Source: Rhodobacter xanthinilyticus (GTDB lineage: Bacteria > Pseudomonadota > Alphaproteobacteria > Rhodobacterales > Rhodobacteraceae). From it: a stretch of DNA of 64,000 nt. Location: positions 2,265,501-2,329,500 of the forward strand of contig NZ_CP017781.1 in the NCBI RefSeq assembly GCF_001856665.1. The letters run 5' to 3'. A program made the position numbers and the translations under genes. The notes below the pieces were generated by a model. The model was not told where the DNA came from, did not search any database, and worked only from the letters and a program-made list of their open reading frames with translations. Each line of letters begins with the position of its first letter. Within the stretch, counting starts at the first letter, position 1. Below are positions 24,037 through 31,293 of this stretch, one piece after another.

Positions 24037-25824
24037 TCAGCCGTCCTTCTTGACGAGCTGGATGCCTTCCATCTCGTCGGGGCCGGCCTCGGGGCGCAGC
24101 CCCAGAAGCGGCGCGACGCGCCGGATCACCTCGGCCGCCACCGGCACCGCCGTCCAGCCCGCCGTGCGCCGCGGCTCGGAGCCGGAGTTCTCGGAGGGCT
24201 CATCAAGCGTCAGCACCAGCACATATTTCGGGTCCGTCACCGGGAAGACCGAGGCGAAGGTCGCGATCACCTTGTCATCATAATAGCCGCCGCTGGGCTT
24301 GGCCTTGTCGGCGGAGCCGGTCTTGCCGGCGACCTGATAGCCCGCGACCTCGCCAAAGGAGGCGGTGCCGCGCGCCACCACCGCGCGCATCATCGCCAGC
24401 GCGCGCCGCGCCACGATCGGGTCCATCACCTGCTCGCCCGGGGCGGCGGTCTTGCCATGAACGAGCGTCGGCATGACCCGCCGCCCGCCGTTCGCAATCG
24501 TCGCATAAGCGGCCGCCAGATGCAGCGGCGAGGCCGAGAGGCCGTGGCCGTAGCCGATCGTCATCGACGAGATTTCCGACCATTTCGCGGGCACGATCGG
24601 GCGCCCCGTCGGCGCCTCGACGAGCTCGACCGAGGTGGGCTCCAGAAAGCCCATCTTGCGCAGGAAATCGCGCTGCCGGTCGGCGCCGATCATCTGCACG
24701 ATCCGCGCCGTGCCGACGTTGGAGGATTTCACGATGATATCGGTGACCGAGTTTTCCGCGCCGTAATTGTGGAAATCGCGGATGCGGAAGCGGCCCCAGA
24801 CCATCGGGCTCTTCGTCGGCACCATGGTCGCGGGGTTGACGAGGCCAAGCTGCATCGCCTGCGCCACGGCAAAGATCTTGAAGGTCGAGCCGAGCTCATA
24901 GACGCCCTGCACCGCGCGGTTGAACAGCGGGCTGTCGGAGGCATCGCCCTTGGCGAGCGGCGCGGGCCGGTCGTTGGGGTCGAAATCGGGCAGGCTCGCC
25001 ATCGCGAGGATCTCGCCCGAGCGCACATCCATCAAGATCGCCGCCGCGCCCTTGGCATTCATCAGCTTCATGCCGCCATCGAGGATCTCCTCGACCGCGG
25101 ACTGGATGGTGAGATCGAGCGAGAGCGCGAGCGGCGCGCCGTGGTTGGCCGGGTCGCGCAGCCAGCCGTCAAAGGCCTTCTCGACGCCCGCAACGCCGAG
25201 GATCTCGGCCGAGCTGACGCCCTCGGCGCCAAAACGCGCGCCGCCAAGGATATGCGCGGCCAGCCGGCCGTTCGGGTAAAGCCGCATCTCGCGCGGGCCG
25301 AAGAGAAGCCCCGGGTCGCCGATATCATGCACCGCCTGCATCTGCTCGGGGCTGATCTTCTTCTTGATCCAGACGAATTTGCGCGTGCCGGTGAAATCCT
25401 TCACCAGCCGGTCGCGCTCGAGATCGGGGAAGATCTTGACCAGCTTGTCGGCGGTGCGCTCAGGGTCGACGAGCATCGGCGGCTGGGCGTAGAGCGCATG
25501 CGTCACGAGATTGGTGGCCAGCACCCGCCCCGCGCGGTCGGTGATATCGGCGCGCTGCGCCACGATCGCCTCGGCCCCGCCCGAGAGCTGCGGCTCCTGC
25601 GGCGGCGTCGCGGCGAGCGAGCCCATCCGCAGCCCCACCGCCACGAAAGCGCCCAGAAACATCAGCCCCATCATCAAAAGCCGCCCCTCGGCGCGCAGCC
25701 GCGCGCGGTCGCGCGTCTCCTCGCCGCGCAGGCGGATATTCTCGCGCTCGATCGCGTCGGGGTTCTCGCCCTTGGCGCGGGCTTGCAAGATGCGCGCGAG
25801 CGGGCGCAGCGGCGTGCGGATCAT
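24037..25824 (-). CDS. ftsI: Septal transpeptidase FtsI (penicillin-binding protein 3)
   Basis: Class B penicillin-binding protein of 595 residues. A basic cytoplasmic tail (1-48) and one membrane anchor (about 49-68, MMGLMFLGAFVAVGLRMGS) precede the pedestal domain. The transpeptidase domain carries the catalytic Ser313 in STFK (313-316), SSN at 367-369 and KTG at 501-503. It cross-links septal peptidoglycan together with FtsW. The start overlaps the ftsL stop by four bases (ATGA). Confidence 0.97.
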   Translation of the reverse strand: MIRTPLRPLARILQARAKGENPDAIERENIRLRGEETRDRARLRAEGRLLMMGLMFLGAFVAVGLRMGSLAATPPQEPQLSGGAEAIVAQRADITDRAGRVLATNLVTHALYAQPPMLVDPERTADKLVKIFPDLERDRLVKDFTGTRKFVWIKKKISPEQMQAVHDIGDPGLLFGPREMRLYPNGRLAAHILGGARFGAEGVSSAEILGVAGVEKAFDGWLRDPANHGAPLALSLDLTIQSAVEEILDGGMKLMNAKGAAAILMDVRSGEILAMASLPDFDPNDRPAPLAKGDASDSPLFNRAVQGVYELGSTFKIFAVAQAMQLGLVNPATMVPTKSPMVWGRFRIRDFHNYGAENSVTDIIVKSSNVGTARIVQMIGADRQRDFLRKMGFLEPTSVELVEAPTGRPIVPAKWSEISSMTIGYGHGLSASPLHLAAAYATIANGGRRVMPTLVHGKTAAPGEQVMDPIVARRALAMMRAVVARGTASFGEVAGYQVAGKTGSADKAKPSGGYYDDKVIATFASVFPVTDPKYVLVLTLDEPSENSGSEPRRTAGWTAVPVAAEVIRRVAPLLGLRPEAGPDEMEGIQLVKKDG

Positions 25825-26198
25825 AGCGGCCCCCCGTCGGAGGCGCCGTTGCGCGCGATCACATCAATAGGGTCCACAAGGCCGCCCTCCCCCAGCGGCG
25901 CGGCTTCGGGCGGTGCAGGGTAAGCCACCTGCCCCACCGCGCCGAACTGCTCGGGCGCGAGCGGCAGGAGCGCGAGGCGCTCGAAATTGAGGTTCACAAG
26001 CTCCGTCAGCCGTTCGGGCCGGTTCAGATAGGCCCATTCCGCGTTCAACACGCCCAACCCCTCATGCAGGCTCGCAATCTCCCGGTTCAGGGCGCGCAAT
26101 TCGCCCTGCCGGTCCTGGGTATCGTAGTTCACCCGATAGGCCCAGAACGCAAGGCCCATCACACACAATGCCGTGGCAAGGTAGAGCAGGTTTCTCAT
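25821..26198 (-). CDS. ftsL: Cell division protein FtsL
   Basis: Small bitopic protein of 125 residues: one N-terminal transmembrane helix (about 4-21) followed by a short coiled coil (about 28-55, [20 protein letters not shown]) and the [17 protein letters not shown] motif typical of FtsL in alphaproteobacteria. A proline-rich tail follows. FtsL pairs with FtsB and activates FtsWI. It overlaps rsmH and ftsI by four bases each. Identification relies on topology, the ERLxELV motif and position. Confidence 0.88.
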
Positions 26199-27226
26199 CG
26201 CGACTTTCCTCGGGGAGACGGGGTCAGAACAGGGGCCGGCAGGCCAAGCCCCGCGCGCTCGGCGCGGCCGGCGGGGGCAGAGGTGCGGCGCGCCACGCGC
26301 AGCTTGGCCGAGCGCGCACGCGGGTTGTCGGCCAGCTCCTCGGGGTCGGGGCCGATCGACTTGCGGGTGAGGAGATCAAAGGGCGCCGGCGCCTCCTCGG
26401 CGGGGGCCGCGGCATAGCGGTTGACATGCGCCGCCCGCCCCGAGCGCGCCTGAAAGAAGCGCTTCACGACCCGGTCCTCGAGCGAATGGAAGGTCACCAC
26501 CGCGAGCCGCCCGCCGGGCTTGAGCGCGCGCTCGGCGGCCTCGAGCCCCTCGATGAGCTGGCCGAATTCGTCATTCACCGCGATGCGGATCGCCTGGAAG
26601 GAGCGCGTCGCAGGGTGGCTCTGGCCGGGTTTGGGCCGCGGCAGACAGCGCTCGATCACCGCGACGAGCTGACGGGTGGTCTCGAAGGGGCTCGCGCGCC
26701 GCGCCTCGGCGATCGCCCGCGCGATCCGGCGCGAGGCGCGCTCCTCGCCGTAATGATAGAGGATGTCGGCAAGCTCTTCCTCGCTCAGTTCATTGACGAG
26801 ATCGGCCGCCGAGGGGCCGCTGCGCGACATCCGCATGTCGAGCGGGCCATCGGTCATGAAGGAAAAGCCGCGCTCGGCCTGATCGAGCTGCATCGAGCTG
26901 ACGCCCAGATCGAGCACCACACCGTCGAGCCCGCCAAACCCGCCCTCGCCCGGCGCGATCTCGGCGGCATAGGTGTCGAGCTCGGAAAACGTCCCCTCGA
27001 CGAGCACCAGCCGATCGCCATAGTCGCCCCGCCAGCCCTCGGCCATCGCAAAGACCGACGGATCGCGATCGACGCCGATCACCCGCCCCGCCCCCGCCGC
27101 CAGAAGCCCGCGCGCATAACCGCCCGCGCCGAAGGTGCCGTCGAGCCAGACCCCCGAGACAGGCGCGACCGCTTCGAGAAGCGGCCGCAGCAATACCGGA
27201 ATATGAGGGCGCTCCGCATCCGACAT
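26195..27226 (-). CDS. rsmH: 16S rRNA (cytosine(1402)-N4)-methyltransferase RsmH
   Basis: SAM-dependent methyltransferase (formerly MraW), 343 residues. SAM loop [11 protein letters not shown] (near 30-40), then RVIGVDRDP, the [21 protein letters not shown]-type block, [28 protein letters not shown] and a C-terminal [12 protein letters not shown]. It methylates C1402 in the decoding centre. ATG at 27226 overlaps the mraZ stop as TGATG; a GTG one codon earlier (27229) is the alternative. Confidence 0.97.
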
Positions 27227-27729
27227 CACGCCGCTCCGATCTTTGGCAAATGCACGAGCGGGTCATAGCCCTCGGGCCGCGCCTCGGCCCGCGCCGCCGC
27301 AATCGCCGCCTGCTCGGCCTCATAGGTCTCCGGATCCCAGATCTTGAACGAGGTCCCCGCCGAGGCAAAGAACGCCTCGCCCTTCAGCGCGATCTTCTCG
27401 CGCAGCTTTTGCGGCAGAACGAGCCGCCCGTCGCCGTCGATATCGGTCTGGTGCGATTGCGCATACATCAGCTCTTCGATCTCGGCCCGCTCACCCGAGC
27501 CGCGCTGCATCGCGTCGATCTGCTCATCGATCTCGTAGATCGCTTCCATGGTGAAAACTTCGAGATATTTGCGCTCCGCCCCGCCATAGACGATCACGAT
27601 CTGCGGGCGCGCGCCCGGGGCCCAGTCCGGGTCACCGGCTTCGATCACGCGACGAAACGAGGCCGGGATGGAAACGCGACCCTTCGCGTCCACCTTGAAA
27701 GTCTCCGAACCTCTGAACCGCCGTGCCAA
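27226..27729 (-). CDS. mraZ: Transcriptional regulator MraZ (TTG start)
   Basis: MraZ, first gene of the dcw cluster, a ring-forming AbrB-fold regulator that usually represses its own operon. 167 residues with the two SpoVT/AbrB-like repeats: [16 protein letters not shown] at the N terminus and [16 protein letters not shown] in the middle. The start is read as TTG at 27729 ([14 protein letters not shown]): GGAGAG stands about 8 bases upstream, the family begins with (M)ARRFRGS, and the open frame further upstream crosses the leader hairpin and shows no family similarity. Regulation: a long leader with a terminator-like hairpin, decameric GGGAA repeats and DnaA boxes precedes it. Confidence 0.93.
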
Positions 27730-27774
27730 AGCTGGCGCTCTCCTGTCCCACCCCGTTGCATCGATCCCAGAAAT

Positions 27775-27816
27775 GGAAAACGGCGGATCGGACTGCTGCC
27801 ACTGTCCGATCCGCCG
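27775..27816 (-). terminator. Leader terminator/attenuator upstream of mraZ
   Basis: On the minus strand CGGCGGATCGGAC, a 10-base loop, then GTCCGATCCGCCG: a perfect 13-bp stem (27816-27781) followed by TTTTCC. It ends about 48 bases before the mraZ TTG codon. In Rhodobacter sphaeroides the corresponding leader is partly terminated to release the sRNA UpsM; this hairpin has the right place and shape for that. Confidence 0.8.
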
Positions 27817-27982
27817 CCCTCGTCCCATCGCTGGGTGTCCGGACTGCGCGCGCCACCTGGGGGGATGTCTGCTCGCCCGCGCGCCGGATCTCTCTTTCGT
27901 GAAGCGGGTGCCTGTATGAAACCCGGTCTTTGCGCCGTGGGGTCTTGCTGCCCCTTACCCTCGCCTCTCGATGCACAAGGGA
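27777..27982 (-). ncRNA. UpsM-like sRNA from the dcw 5' leader
   Basis: Known from R. sphaeroides: the dcw cluster is preceded by an unusually long leader, about 270 bases, whose first roughly 200 bases accumulate as the abundant sRNA UpsM. Here the leader downstream end is fixed by the hairpin at 27781-27816; a 206-base RNA would begin near 27982, inside the decameric repeats. The 5' end is therefore set by analogy, not seen; no convincing -35/-10 could be read there. No conserved reading frame fills the stretch. A small GGGG...CCCC hairpin (about 27935-27955) lies within. Presence of the RNA is inference from position and terminator. Confidence 0.6.
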
Positions 27983-28419: not shown

Positions 28420-29484
28420 TCAAACCGCGCCCGCGGCGATCAGCTTCTCGGCAATCGCCCGATAGCCCGCCGCGGCCGGCCCCTCGCCCGCCGCCACCGG
28501 CGTTCCCGCATCCCCCGCAAGCCGCACCTCGAGATCGAGCGGCAACTCGCCAAGGTAAGGCAGCCCGAGCTTCACCGCCTCCGCGCCCACACCCCCATGC
28601 CCGAAGAGATGCGCCTCATGCCCGCAATTGGGGCAGACATAGCTCGACATGTTCTCGATCAGCCCGATCACCGGCGTCTCCAGCCGGCGGAACATGTCGA
28701 GCGCCTTGCGCGCATCCAAAAGCGCCACATCCTGCGGCGTCGACACCACGATCGCGCCGTCGAGCCTGGTCTTCTGGCACAGCGTGAGCTGAATATCCCC
28801 GGTGCCCGGCGGCAAATCGATGATCAGCACATCGAGCGGCCCGTAATGATCCCAGGCGACCTGACCGAGCATCTGCTGGAGCGCCCCCATCAGCATCGGC
28901 CCGCGCCAGATCACCGCCTCATCCTCCTTGAGCATCAGCCCGATCGACATCAGCGTGACCCCATGCGCGCGCAGCGGCAAGATCGTCTTGCCATCGGGCG
29001 AGGCGGGGCGCTGCTGCACCCCCATCATCCGCGGCTGCGACGGGCCATAGATATCGGCATCGAGCAGGCCCACCCGCTTGCCCGCCCGCGCCAGCGCCAC
29101 CGCGAGGTTCGAACTCACCGTCGATTTGCCGACGCCGCCCTTGCCCGAGCCCACCGCGATGATGTGCCGCACCCCCGCCACCCCCTGCGGACCCGCCTGC
29201 GGCGTCGGGTGCTGGCCGATCTTCGGCCCCGCGCCCATCCCCTTGGCCGGCCCCGAAGGCACCACCACCGTCAGGCTCTCCACCCCGGCGAGCGCCCGCA
29301 CCGCCGCCTCGATCGCGGGTTTGGCGGCCGCGAGCTCAGCCTCCGGCGCGCCTTCGAGCACGAAGCGTACCACCCCCGACTCAACCGCGAGCGCCCGGAT
29401 CAGATCGCGCGACACCGGGTCACCGCCCCCCGGCATCCGCACGATTCGAAGCGCTTCGAGGACCGATTCCTTGCTGAGGCTCAT
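28420..29484 (-). CDS. Mrp/ApbC-family P-loop ATPase, Fe-S cluster carrier
   Basis: 354 residues. The N-terminal DUF59/MIP18-like domain (about 1-80, SVLEALRIVRMPGGGDPVSRDLI) precedes the Mrp ATPase with deviant Walker A GKGGVGKS (114-121), DADIYGPSQPRMMG, LIIDLPPGTGD and the cluster-binding pair Cys284/Cys287 in SYVCPNCGHE. Members carry and transfer [4Fe-4S] clusters to apoproteins. The ATG at 29484 has AGGAGA five bases upstream; longer open sequence lacks similarity. Divergent from the DUF1127 gene, with a 254-base control region between them. The same mraZ-mrp-DUF1127 proximity is consistent with R. sphaeroides. Confidence 0.93.
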   Translation of the reverse strand: MSLSKESVLEALRIVRMPGGGDPVSRDLIRALAVESGVVRFVLEGAPEAELAAAKPAIEAAVRALAGVESLTVVVPSGPAKGMGAGPKIGQHPTPQAGPQGVAGVRHIIAVGSGKGGVGKSTVSSNLAVALARAGKRVGLLDADIYGPSQPRMMGVQQRPASPDGKTILPLRAHGVTLMSIGLMLKEDEAVIWRGPMLMGALQQMLGQVAWDHYGPLDVLIIDLPPGTGDIQLTLCQKTRLDGAIVVSTPQDVALLDARKALDMFRRLETPVIGLIENMSSYVCPNCGHEAHLFGHGGVGAEAVKLGLPYLGELPLDLEVRLAGDAGTPVAAGEGPAAAGYRAIAEKLIAAGAV

Positions 29485-29738
29485 GACTGTCTCCTGTCGA
29501 TTTCGGCGCGACTGTGGCGTTTTTGCCGCGCGATTCAAGGGGGCGCGCAATTTATGTAAACAAAAGGTAGGAAATGACGCCGCGGAAATAATCGGAACAG
29601 GCCCAAAATGGCCCAATCCGGCCATGCGTTTTCTGCATGGCAGAAATGCATCCGCCAACCATTGTGCAGGTGCAGCAAAACCCCCAAATTGACCCCAACG
29701 GCGAAACGATCCGCCCCGAAAATACGAAGGCAGTAACG
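29485..29738. promoter_or_regulatory. Divergent control region mrp / DUF1127 gene
   Basis: 254 bases between two start codons. It is more AT-rich than the flanks and contains a perfect inverted repeat TTTCTGC-ATG-GCAGAAA (29630-29646). In R. sphaeroides the CcsR operon is driven by RpoHI/RpoHII; no -35/-10 pair convincing enough to call was found here. Confidence 0.4.
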
Positions 29739-29942
29739 ATGGCTCTGGTTCAGGAACTTCACGGCAATGACGCCGGCTTCACCCGCTTCTTCGCGGGCCT
29801 TTCGGAAGCCCTCGCCCGCCGCAAGGTGTATCGCCAGACGCTGCGCGAGCTGAAAGCTCTCTCGGCCCGCGAACTGGCCGATCTGGGCATCCATCGTTCG
29901 ATGATCACCCGCGTCGCCCAAGAGGCGGCCTACGGCAAGTAA
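29739..29942 (+). CDS. ccaF1: DUF1127 small RNA-binding-type protein (CcaF1-like)
   Basis: 67 residues, basic C-terminal half. The DUF1127 core is RQTLRELKALSARELADLGIHRSMITRVAQEAAYG, preceded by FFAGLSEALARRKVYRQ. The start at 29739 (MALVQELHGND) matches the size of relatives; an in-frame ATG at 29637 would add 34 unlike residues. In R. sphaeroides the DUF1127 protein CcaF1 is encoded directly upstream of the CcsR sRNAs, binds RNA and affects their maturation. The same arrangement is seen here: the first hairpin starts 11 bases after the stop codon. Name assigned by this synteny. Confidence 0.85.
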   Translation: MALVQELHGNDAGFTRFFAGLSEALARRKVYRQTLRELKALSARELADLGIHRSMITRVAQEAAYGK

Positions 29943-29952
29943 TTCTCTTCCT

Positions 29953-30021
29953 GAGGCCCCTCCTCCTCCCTGGGCCTCGGAAATCGGCGGCGCCCTCCTC
30001 CTCCTCCCTGAGGGTGCCGCC
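29953..30021 (+). ncRNA. CcsR-like sRNA unit 1 (two CCTCCTCC hairpins)
   Basis: Hairpin 1: GAGGCCC, loop with CTCCTCCTCCCT, GGGCCTC (29953-29978). Hairpin 2: an 11-bp stem GGCGGCGCCCT/AGGGTGCCGCC with one G-U pair, loop CCTCCTCCTCCC-like (29986-30021). Followed by the spacer motif AAATACCGG (30025-30033). CcsR RNAs of R. sphaeroides are stress-induced and carry CCUCCUCCC in exposed loops. Confidence 0.85.
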
Positions 30022-30056
30022 ATCAAATACCGGAGCGCAAGCCCCGGACCGCGACG

Positions 30057-30126
30057 AAGGCCCCTCCTCCTCCCTGGGCCTTTGTGACGAAGGCGGCGGC
30101 CCCCTCCTCCTCCCTGGGGCTGCCGC
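30057..30126 (+). ncRNA. CcsR-like sRNA unit 2
   Basis: Hairpin 1: AAGGCCC/GGGCCTT with CTCCTCCTCCCT loop (30057-30082). Hairpin 2: GCGGC-GCCCC paired to GGGGC-GCCGC with a similar loop (30093-30126). The longest inter-unit spacer follows (30127-30180), containing AGATACCGG at 30154-30162. Confidence 0.85.
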
Positions 30127-30180
30127 ACTTCCCCTCCCGCCCGCGGCGGGCCGAGATACCGGGCTGAACGCCCGCGAGAC

Positions 30181-30252
30181 ACGAAAGGCCCCTCCTCCTC
30201 CCTGGGCCGATCGTCAGGGCGGCGCCCTCCTCCTCCTTCCTGAGGGCGCCGT
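30181..30252 (+). ncRNA. CcsR-like sRNA unit 3
   Basis: Hairpin 1: GGCCC/GGGCC with outer ACGA/TCGT pairing and CTCCTCCTCCCT loop (30181-30214). Hairpin 2: GGCGCCCT/AGGGCGCC, loop CCTCCTCCTTCCTG (30219-30252); here the CCTCCC motif is altered to CTTCC. Spacer AAATACCGG at 30256-30264 overlaps the next unit. Confidence 0.83.
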
Positions 30253-30260
30253 CACAAATA

Positions 30261-30326
30261 CCGGGCCCCTCCTCCTCCCTGGGCCCGGGTGCGGCGAGCC
30301 CTCCTCCTCCTCCCTGAGGGTGCGCC
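30261..30326 (+). ncRNA. CcsR-like sRNA unit 4
   Basis: Hairpin 1: CCGGGCCC/GGGCCCGG, 8 bp, CTCCTCCTCCCT-type loop (30261-30288). Hairpin 2: GGCG..CCCT paired with AGGG..CGCC with a two-base internal mismatch (30293-30326). Spacer GAATACCGC at 30328-30336. Confidence 0.83.
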
Positions 30327-30335
30327 AGAATACCG

Positions 30336-30404
30336 CGGGCCCCTCCTCCTCCCGGGCCCGAGGACAAGAGACGGCGGGCCCCTCCTCCTCCCTGGGCCCG
30401 CCGT
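30336..30404 (+). ncRNA. CcsR-like sRNA unit 5, ending in the terminator
   Basis: Hairpin 1: CGGGCCC/GGGCCCG, loop CTCCTCCTCCC (30336-30360). Hairpin 2: ACGGCGGGCCC/GGGCCCGCCGT, an 11-bp perfect stem with the CTCCTCCTCCCT loop (30371-30404). R. sphaeroides has four CcsR copies; this is a fifth. Confidence 0.85.
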
Positions 30405-30412
30405 TTTGTTTT
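30371..30412 (+). terminator. Rho-independent terminator of the ccaF1-CcsR operon
   Basis: The last CCTCCTCC hairpin is followed at once by TTTTGTTTT (30404-30412), so it doubles as terminator for the whole array. Confidence 0.85.
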
Positions 30413-30495: not shown

Positions 30496-31293
30496 ATGCT
30501 CTCCTATCAACATGGCTTTCACGCCGGGAATCTGGCCGATGTGCACAAACATGCGCTGATGGCCACCGCGCTCGACTATCTGACCCGCAAGGACAAGCCG
30601 CTGAGCTACCTCGAGACCCATTCGGGCCGCGGGCTCTATGCGCTCGACAGCGCGGCGGCGGTGAAGACCGGCGAGGCGGCCGAGGGCATCGAGCGGGTCG
30701 AGAAACTCGGCTGGTTCGGCGCCGCCCACCCCTATGCGCGCGCGCTCAAGGCGGTGCGGGCGCGTCACGGCCCGCGCGCCTATCCGGGCTCGCCGATGCT
30801 CGCGGCCGAGCTTTTGCGCCCGATCGACGCGCTGCAATTGTGCGAGCTGCACCCGCAGGAATTCGCCGCCCTGCGCGAGGCGATGGCGCCCCATGGCGGC
30901 ATCTTCCACCACAAGGACGGGCTCGCCATGGCGCTGGCGCTGACGCCGCCGACGCCGCGCCGCGGGATCATGCTGATCGACCCCTCCTGGGAGGTGAAGG
31001 CCGATTACGAGACGATCCCGAAACTGCTCGGCCAGGTCGCGCGGAAATGGAACGTCGGCATCCTCGCGCTCTGGTATCCGATCCTCGCCTCCGAGGTCGC
31101 GGCCTCGGCGGCGCAGCGCAAGATGGTGCGCAGCCTGCGCGACGCCCACCCCGAGGCGCTGATCTCCGAAGTCGGCTTCCCGCCCGCGCGCGAGGGCCAC
31201 GGGATGATCGGCTCGGGGATGGTCTTCCTGAACCCGCCCTGGGGGCTCGAGGGCGAGGCGCGGCGCCTCGAGGGCCTGTTCCGCCGGCTCTGA
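30496..31293 (+). CDS. rlmJ: 23S rRNA (adenine(2030)-N6)-methyltransferase RlmJ
   Basis: 265 residues, starting MLSYQHGFHAGNLADVHKHA, the N-terminal hallmark of RlmJ (formerly DUF519); in-frame sequence upstream of 30496 is not conserved. Also visible: SYLETHSGRGLYAL for the SAM site and IMLIDPSWEVK for catalytic motif IV, where E. coli has DPPYE. RlmJ methylates A2030 of 23S rRNA. It lies 84 bases after the CcsR terminator and probably has its own promoter. Confidence 0.94.
   Translation: MLSYQHGFHAGNLADVHKHALMATALDYLTRKDKPLSYLETHSGRGLYALDSAAAVKTGEAAEGIERVEKLGWFGAAHPYARALKAVRARHGPRAYPGSPMLAAELLRPIDALQLCELHPQEFAALREAMAPHGGIFHHKDGLAMALALTPPTPRRGIMLIDPSWEVKADYETIPKLLGQVARKWNVGILALWYPILASEVAASAAQRKMVRSLRDAHPEALISEVGFPPAREGHGMIGSGMVFLNPPWGLEGEARRLEGLFRRL

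Follow-up and report, generated by a model that had tools for sequence, protein, structure and literature searches.

A short gene with a run of tandem hairpins behind it, found in a 64,000-nucleotide stretch of the Rhodobacter xanthinilyticus genome (the window), raises the question of what kind of RNA element the hairpins form and what might switch it on. An earlier note on this DNA had read the run as a five-unit CcsR-type array behind a DUF1127 gene. The array itself turns out to be expected; the promoter element upstream of it and a candidate for its regulator are the part worth testing.

The hairpin array and its family

The gene (29739..29942, plus strand) encodes a CcaF1-like DUF1127 protein of 67 aa (67 codons; Pfam PF06568, 3.9e-14), and DUF1127 matches at E <= 1.2e-20 are present in 14 of 17 genomes of the same genus. 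Its neighbours are a gene for an Mrp/NUBPL-type ATPase (PF10609; window 28420-29484, minus strand) and, beyond the array, an RlmJ gene (PF04378; window 30496-31293, plus strand). Ten hairpins, arranged as five pairs and followed by a U tract, lie 3' of the DUF1127 gene, each with an exposed loop of 11-12 nt of the CTCCTCCTCCCT type. This layout agrees with the earlier description and stands apart from chance: 500 dinucleotide shuffles of the array region held a mean of 0.63 and a maximum of 4 such hairpins, and the same loose detector gave 12 scattered matches on the plus strand and 11 on the minus strand in the rest of the 64 kb. The fold of the whole 468-nt array has a z of -6.66, with none of 100 shuffles equally good.

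The units, each of two anti-Shine-Dalgarno (aSD) hairpins on the plus strand, run from unit 1 (29943..30025; loops starting at 29960 and 29998) through unit 2 (30046..30131; 30064 and 30104), unit 3 (30176..30257; 30192 and 30230) and unit 4 (30258..30328; 30269 and 30304) to unit 5 (30328..30409; 30343 and 30382). All ten hairpins carry CCTCCTCC, and eight retain the longer form CTCCTCCCT. A single loop had been said to have lost the exact motif; this is true of the long form in the second hairpin of unit 3 (CTTCCT, in the loop CTCCTCCTTCCT), but that hairpin keeps CCTCCTCC, and the first hairpin of unit 5 (CTCCTCCC then G) lacks the long form as well. As had been proposed, the last hairpin (30371..30412, plus strand) looks, by sequence and fold, like an intrinsic terminator as well: on inspection it runs into the U tract TTTTGTTTT (30404-30412), and a terminator scanner passed over it because the scanner's loop limit is 8.

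Two Rfam families recognise the array. The ar14 model (RF02344) scores 60.1 bits at 30287-30408 and there reaches its gathering score of 58.8, the only time it does so; three further ar14 matches within the array, at 36-51 bits, lie below that score, and ar14 matches at E <= 0.001 are confined to this array in the whole genome. The CcsR covariance-model search that the earlier note had suggested picked out four of the five units (CcsR1, RF02791; units 1, 2, 3 and 5 at 49.7, 47.6, 43.1 and 46.6 bits, E 3.9e-9 to 4.4e-11), but all of these matches stay below the gathering score of 65.3, which none of the five units reaches. Unit 4 has no CcsR1 match of its own and lies partly inside the ar14 matches. 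Tandem hairpins with CCUCCUCCC-type loops on variable stems and a short DUF1127 gene directly upstream, two features of cuckoo RNA/CIN1 loci, are both found here.

The closest described counterpart is the operon of Rhodobacter sphaeroides, reported to comprise the DUF1127 protein CcaF1 and four CcsR RNAs, with an RpoHI/RpoHII promoter and processing by RNase E; RNase E is described as releasing CcsR1-4 from the 3' UTR of ccaF1, and these RNAs as Hfq-dependent and degraded by PNPase (PMC10253847, PMC8625941, PMC7866481). C1 metabolism and stress induction are further features connected with that operon. In both loci, units with CCUCCUCCC-type loops come after a DUF1127 gene and end in a terminator, and the promoter here may likewise be RpoH-like; the two differ in unit number, four there and five here, and in the fit to the CcsR1 model, which gives 43-50 bits here. 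Such loops were reported as aSD motifs of a family with varying hairpin number by Reinkensmeier and others in 2011 (PMC3927594). With the ar14 match above gathering, PF06568 and this literature, the CcsR-type assignment holds, even though CcsR1 itself falls short of its threshold. The locus is a CcsR-like member of the cuckoo/CIN1 group, real but ordinary and of a known kind, and we consider it highly probable that it works as a CcsR-like cuckoo/CIN1 riboregulator operon.

For comparison, 84,980 species genomes were scanned with a DUF1127 alignment, which gave 108 relatives, and the best 80 of the 108 were kept. All 80 of these named loci (best 80 of 108) have at least two aSD hairpins downstream (range 2-16); the loci were found by two peptide patterns and belong to the gene's own DUF1127 subgroup, and are therefore not representative of DUF1127 genes at large. 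Related loci are not independent, so that Fisher values are not usable as probabilities. In a separate set of 30 DUF1127 loci, by contrast, seven, mostly among the weaker DUF1127 matches, have no array, with 0 or 1 hairpin.

A conserved promoter element

Upstream of the gene lies a two-part element that is widely conserved. Its distal part is a TGC-N7-GCA dyad, a T-N11-A LysR-type box (29625..29637, plus strand), and its proximal part is the block TTGTGCA-N3-GCAGCA (29662..29677, plus strand), which holds a -35 TTGTGC at 29662-29667 and a second TGC-N7-GCA dyad at 29665-29677. The block is invariant, except for one C at 96%, in 78 aligned regions, which had to agree at 14 or more of 19 positions with a consensus including the block, a choice that favours it; L092 and L093, without a promoter match (2/80), were left out. 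The predicted -10 is CAAATT (29685..29690, plus strand; CATNTT in most relatives), with an estimated start at about 29697. Taking the start as 7 nt after the -10, the distal dyad here spans an estimated -72 to -60, and in 73 of the 78 regions it starts at -72 (58 loci) or -71 (15 loci).

Block-wise comparison of the window and 79 named loci gives a similar picture. A 27-base block, TTATGCATTTTCTGCATGGCAGCATTG, is found above the 99th percentile of shuffles in 73 of them, and a 19-base block, CATTGTGCAGTTGCAGCAT, in 78; where both are clear, their starts are 38 (61 loci) or 37 (15 loci) bases apart. A search without mismatch for the combined TGC-N7-GCA ... TTGTGCA-N3-GCAGCA pattern, which had been read from same-family relatives (some possibly among the genomes searched), found it in 74 of the 120 family genomes and 73 of the 119 genera; the reversed pattern occurs in 0/120. 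In the R. xanthinilyticus genome it occurs once. The search pattern included neither gene nor array. A DUF1127 profile match was found within 600 nt downstream in 28 of 30 fetched places (of 79), the exceptions being L198 and L219, against 12 of 30 with a crude DUF1127 expression. At least two hairpins lie within 1.5 kb downstream in 29 of the 30 (203 hairpins in all) and upstream in two (8 in all).

An LsrB/VtlR-type candidate regulator

The distal dyad points to a LysR-type regulator, and related aSD RNAs of the Rhizobiales are reported to be under LsrB or VtlR. In Sinorhizobium meliloti, the LsrB site of NfeR1 (ar14 RNA), TGCA-N6-GCAT, is placed at -72 to -60, and that of AbcR1 at -61 to -49 (PMC8844928). 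VtlR of Brucella melitensis is described as a positive regulator of three DUF1127 genes and of AbcR2, with its motif quoted as CAATGCAGCCATGCA (PMC12595884). The exact published LsrB forms occur in part of the 78 regions, TGCA-N6-GCAT in 40 and GCAT-N3-TG-N3-T in 12. A VtlR-like 15-mer at 12/15 or better is found in 64 of 78 loci, compared with 2 of 240 stretches drawn at random from those loci, a background that may itself touch the promoter element. When the 78 regions are reduced to a consensus, it agrees with the VtlR motif at 13/15, a level reached by 3 of 20,000 shuffles. In the window, the 15-mer TGCATGGCAGAAATG (29634..29648, plus strand) agrees at 12/15 with the reverse complement of the Brucella motif, a weaker copy than in most relatives. 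Sites within three mismatches of TGCATGGCWGCATTG are common in the R. xanthinilyticus genome, at 133 as against 16 for the reversed pattern, which weighs against the LsrB reading.

An LsrB orthologue is encoded by the genome. The literature places lsrB beside trxB, in a trxB-lsrB operon (PMC11975290), and the query was a LysR gene that adjoins trxB in a different alphaproteobacterium. In each of 25 Rhodobacteraceae genomes (R. xanthinilyticus, 17 of its genus group and seven of the family) it finds one protein of 48-54% identity, the next LysR proteins being at 39% or less among the matches listed. The R. xanthinilyticus orthologue, which lies outside the window (L180, 1501-2376, minus strand; contig C1, 716961-717836), has 51% identity to the query as against 34% for the genome's next LysR protein, and its best PDB match is 9HH1 (E 1.1e-73; next 1.4e-27), reported as Agrobacterium LsrB (PMC11975290). 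Across the class, 36 of 76 genomes (75 families) encode an orthologue at E <= 1e-60. The same source calls LsrB unique to Rhizobiales (PMC11975290); orthologues in Rhodobacteraceae and the wider class disagree with that statement, and the search argues against such confinement. No LysR frame lies beside the R. xanthinilyticus trxB (L149), and the trxB-lsrB neighbourhood was not found at three other trxB loci of the genus examined. An Rfam scan of eight LysR loci gave no match.

The orthologue has a single cysteine, at residue 190. Agrobacterium LsrB has conserved redox cysteines at C144 and C273, and in the 9HH1 alignment the R. xanthinilyticus protein has V and A at these positions, so an Agrobacterium-like thiol switch is not expected and the regulator, if the LsrB reading is true, would have to sense something else. 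As a separate observation, two genomes of the genus group (G003 and G015) have no DUF1127 match and a third (G013) only a weak one, and all three carry the LsrB orthologue.

NfeR1 of S. meliloti resembles the window locus in its aSD loops on variable stems and in an LsrB-type dyad whose promoter position is about the same; unlike it, NfeR1 has three hairpins, a reported sigma-70 promoter and an NtrC site, and a link to DUF1127 is absent from the literature passages inspected. AbcR1/AbcR2 are likewise reported as aSD riboregulators, with an LsrB/VtlR box upstream of AbcR1 and, in Brucella, VtlR targets that include DUF1127 genes, but belong to another RNA family, ar15; ar15 had no match in the R. 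xanthinilyticus genome and none in 76 class genomes, in a search that we rate as uninformative. Within the open PMC library, no title, abstract or inspected passage was found that ties LsrB or VtlR to DUF1127 or CcsR in Rhodobacter or Rhodobacterales.

LsrB control of this locus, which is proposed only here, stands in our judgement at about an even chance. We are equally divided on the wider claim, that in much of the Rhodobacteraceae the DUF1127-cuckoo locus would be driven through two dyads by an LsrB/VtlR-type activator, with regulator and position as in the Rhizobiales aSD RNAs. The main alternative is an RpoH promoter together with some regulator other than LsrB, and we regard this as a serious possibility, at somewhat under an even chance. 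The TTGTGC-N17-CATNTT of the relatives has the TTG that is a reported feature of the RpoHI/RpoHII -35, and such a promoter has been published for R. sphaeroides ccaF1 (PMC10253847, PMC8625941, PMC7866481). The window promoter, TTGTGC-N17-CAAATT, fits in the TTG of its -35 and departs from the relatives' CATNTT in its -10. LysR boxes also resemble one another, and a class-wide test of co-occurrence between LsrB and the strict box gave no support, the box being found in 7 of 76 genomes, four with LsrB and three without; none of its eight places in the class genomes has a DUF1127 gene or an array as a neighbour in our scan, and one has a single hairpin downstream. A sigma factor alone, however, would not account for the distal dyad lying 40 bp further upstream, for a GCAGCA that never varies within the spacer, or for the 64 of 78 loci that match the VtlR motif. 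The element offers a directly testable regulator candidate for CcsR/CIN1 stress RNAs, which the literature, in the passages seen, attributes to RpoHI/RpoHII. If LsrB is the regulator, its pairing with aSD RNAs would be an ancient alphaproteobacterial module.

Units, junctions and a possible mode of action

The units are separated by a recurring motif. The earlier note had placed A(A/G)ATACCG at 30025, 30154, 30256 and 30328, and all four copies are there; ATACCG thus stands at each of the four junctions of the window array, after unit 1 at 30027..30032 (plus strand) and otherwise from 30156, 30258 and 30330, as a candidate processing site. Among the 62 loci that remain when 17 of 79 with odd or too few hairpins are left out, ATAC[CG] is found in 86 of 213 between-unit spacers as against 7 of 275 within-unit spacers, the other 127 between-unit junctions lacking it. 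The junction may be a site of cleavage or of protein binding. Stem length in these 62 loci averages 11.1 base pairs for the second hairpin of a pair and 8.0 for the first.

Structure and loop sequence both appear to be under selection. An alignment of 16 first units (of 20; L037, L038, L056 and L072 were left out) shows compensated change in 18 of 21 predicted pairs, at least one sequence differing on both sides and still pairing, and the loops are nearly constant across the same 16. In the 79 named loci, 640 of 674 loops, taken with their flank, retain CCTCCTCC. The aSD core of 16S RNA is CCUCC; patterns for the 16S tail gave no match in the R. xanthinilyticus genome. The earlier suggestion that the loops resemble aSD sequence is, by analogy, supported by what the literature reports for relatives (PMC3927594, PMC10746234, PMC8844928).

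A mode of action can be proposed in which one stress promoter, probably of RpoH type and perhaps assisted by an LsrB/VtlR-type LysR activator on the two TGC-N7-GCA dyads 40 bp apart, would give a transcript encoding the DUF1127 protein and ending in the ten hairpins. Probable cuts at the single-stranded AUACC junctions would release five small RNAs of two hairpins, so that every RNA has two CUCCUCCUCCCU loops. The loops would probably serve as redundant aSD seeds, pairing with the ribosome-binding sites of many mRNAs and lowering their translation, and the DUF1127 protein would help small-RNA maturation and turnover. Processing, targets, the role of the protein and the use of RpoH are carried over here from the relatives.

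Instead of pairing with target mRNAs, the array might mainly titrate ribosomes or a protein such as the DUF1127 protein or Hfq. The many identical loops would suit such a role, as would the reported RNA binding of CcaF1 and the Hfq dependence of the CcsR RNAs; reporter work on NfeR1, however, shows silencing of ntrBC mRNA by aSD loops of the same kind (PMC10746234), and flhR mRNA is a reported target of the CcsR RNAs, so we think titration unlikely as the main function. Still less probable, to the point of being very doubtful, is a role for the hairpins confined to stabilising or terminating the DUF1127 mRNA: its 3' UTR does contain them and the final one is terminator-like, but a single terminator would suffice, and the loop letters are kept as the stems change with compensation. 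Open frames of 181 aa (plus strand) and 157 aa (minus strand) cross the array, but a repetitive coding or chance low-complexity tract is scarcely credible given the 18 of 21 covarying pairs, the z of -6.66 and the arrays at 80 of 80 named loci (best 80 of 108).

The fifth unit had been singled out against the four of R. sphaeroides. Five units are indeed present, but they are not special. Ten hairpins are the commonest count among the best 80 of 108 (24 loci, with eight in 21, nine in seven and the other 28 within 2-16). At least one short hairpin among those counted (at L048) is spurious, one organism is represented by two contigs (L070 and L071), and the counts are for some loci lower bounds because contig ends cut them (such as L084 and L110). 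Within the genus group, R. xanthinilyticus included, ten hairpins occur in 7 of 15 loci, eight in seven and nine in one; Cereibacter johrii and R. capsulatus have eight each, and two loci of the genus group are identical to R. capsulatus records. In each of the four nearest relatives compared, units 1-5 find their best matches in units 1-5 in turn; with three further five-unit arrays this order holds in 11 of 15 comparisons. For units 1, 2 and 5, the best matches in three four-unit Rhodobacter arrays are units 1, 2 and 4, and against the C. johrii units no order remains. The units are thus positional orthologues in the nearest relatives and the fifth is therefore old within the group; we rejected a special gain of five units on these grounds and take five to be an old and common state. 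As to the idea of copy number as a dosage dial, counts do vary across the family, but positional orthology in the four nearest relatives argues against a fast-changing dial.

Some loci depart from the usual layout. In genome G024, four DUF1127 matches (L025, L029, L031 and L032) share a stretch of about 2 kb and are surrounded by distinct runs of aSD hairpins, and the gene-plus-array unit may itself have been duplicated there. At L021 (1676-2285) the count is high, with fifteen hairpins, and the loop form is a different one, ACCTCCTCCC in 14 of the fifteen. About 2 kb from the window array, a frame at window 27226-27828 (minus strand), with its upstream region extending to about 28150, heads an apparent division cluster; we take it to be MraZ-like, and the frames at 24037-27229 presumably to be RsmH-like, FtsL-like and FtsI-like. 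The R. sphaeroides small RNA UpsM is reported to derive from the mraZ 5' UTR, and by analogy a second small RNA may therefore lie upstream of the MraZ-like gene.
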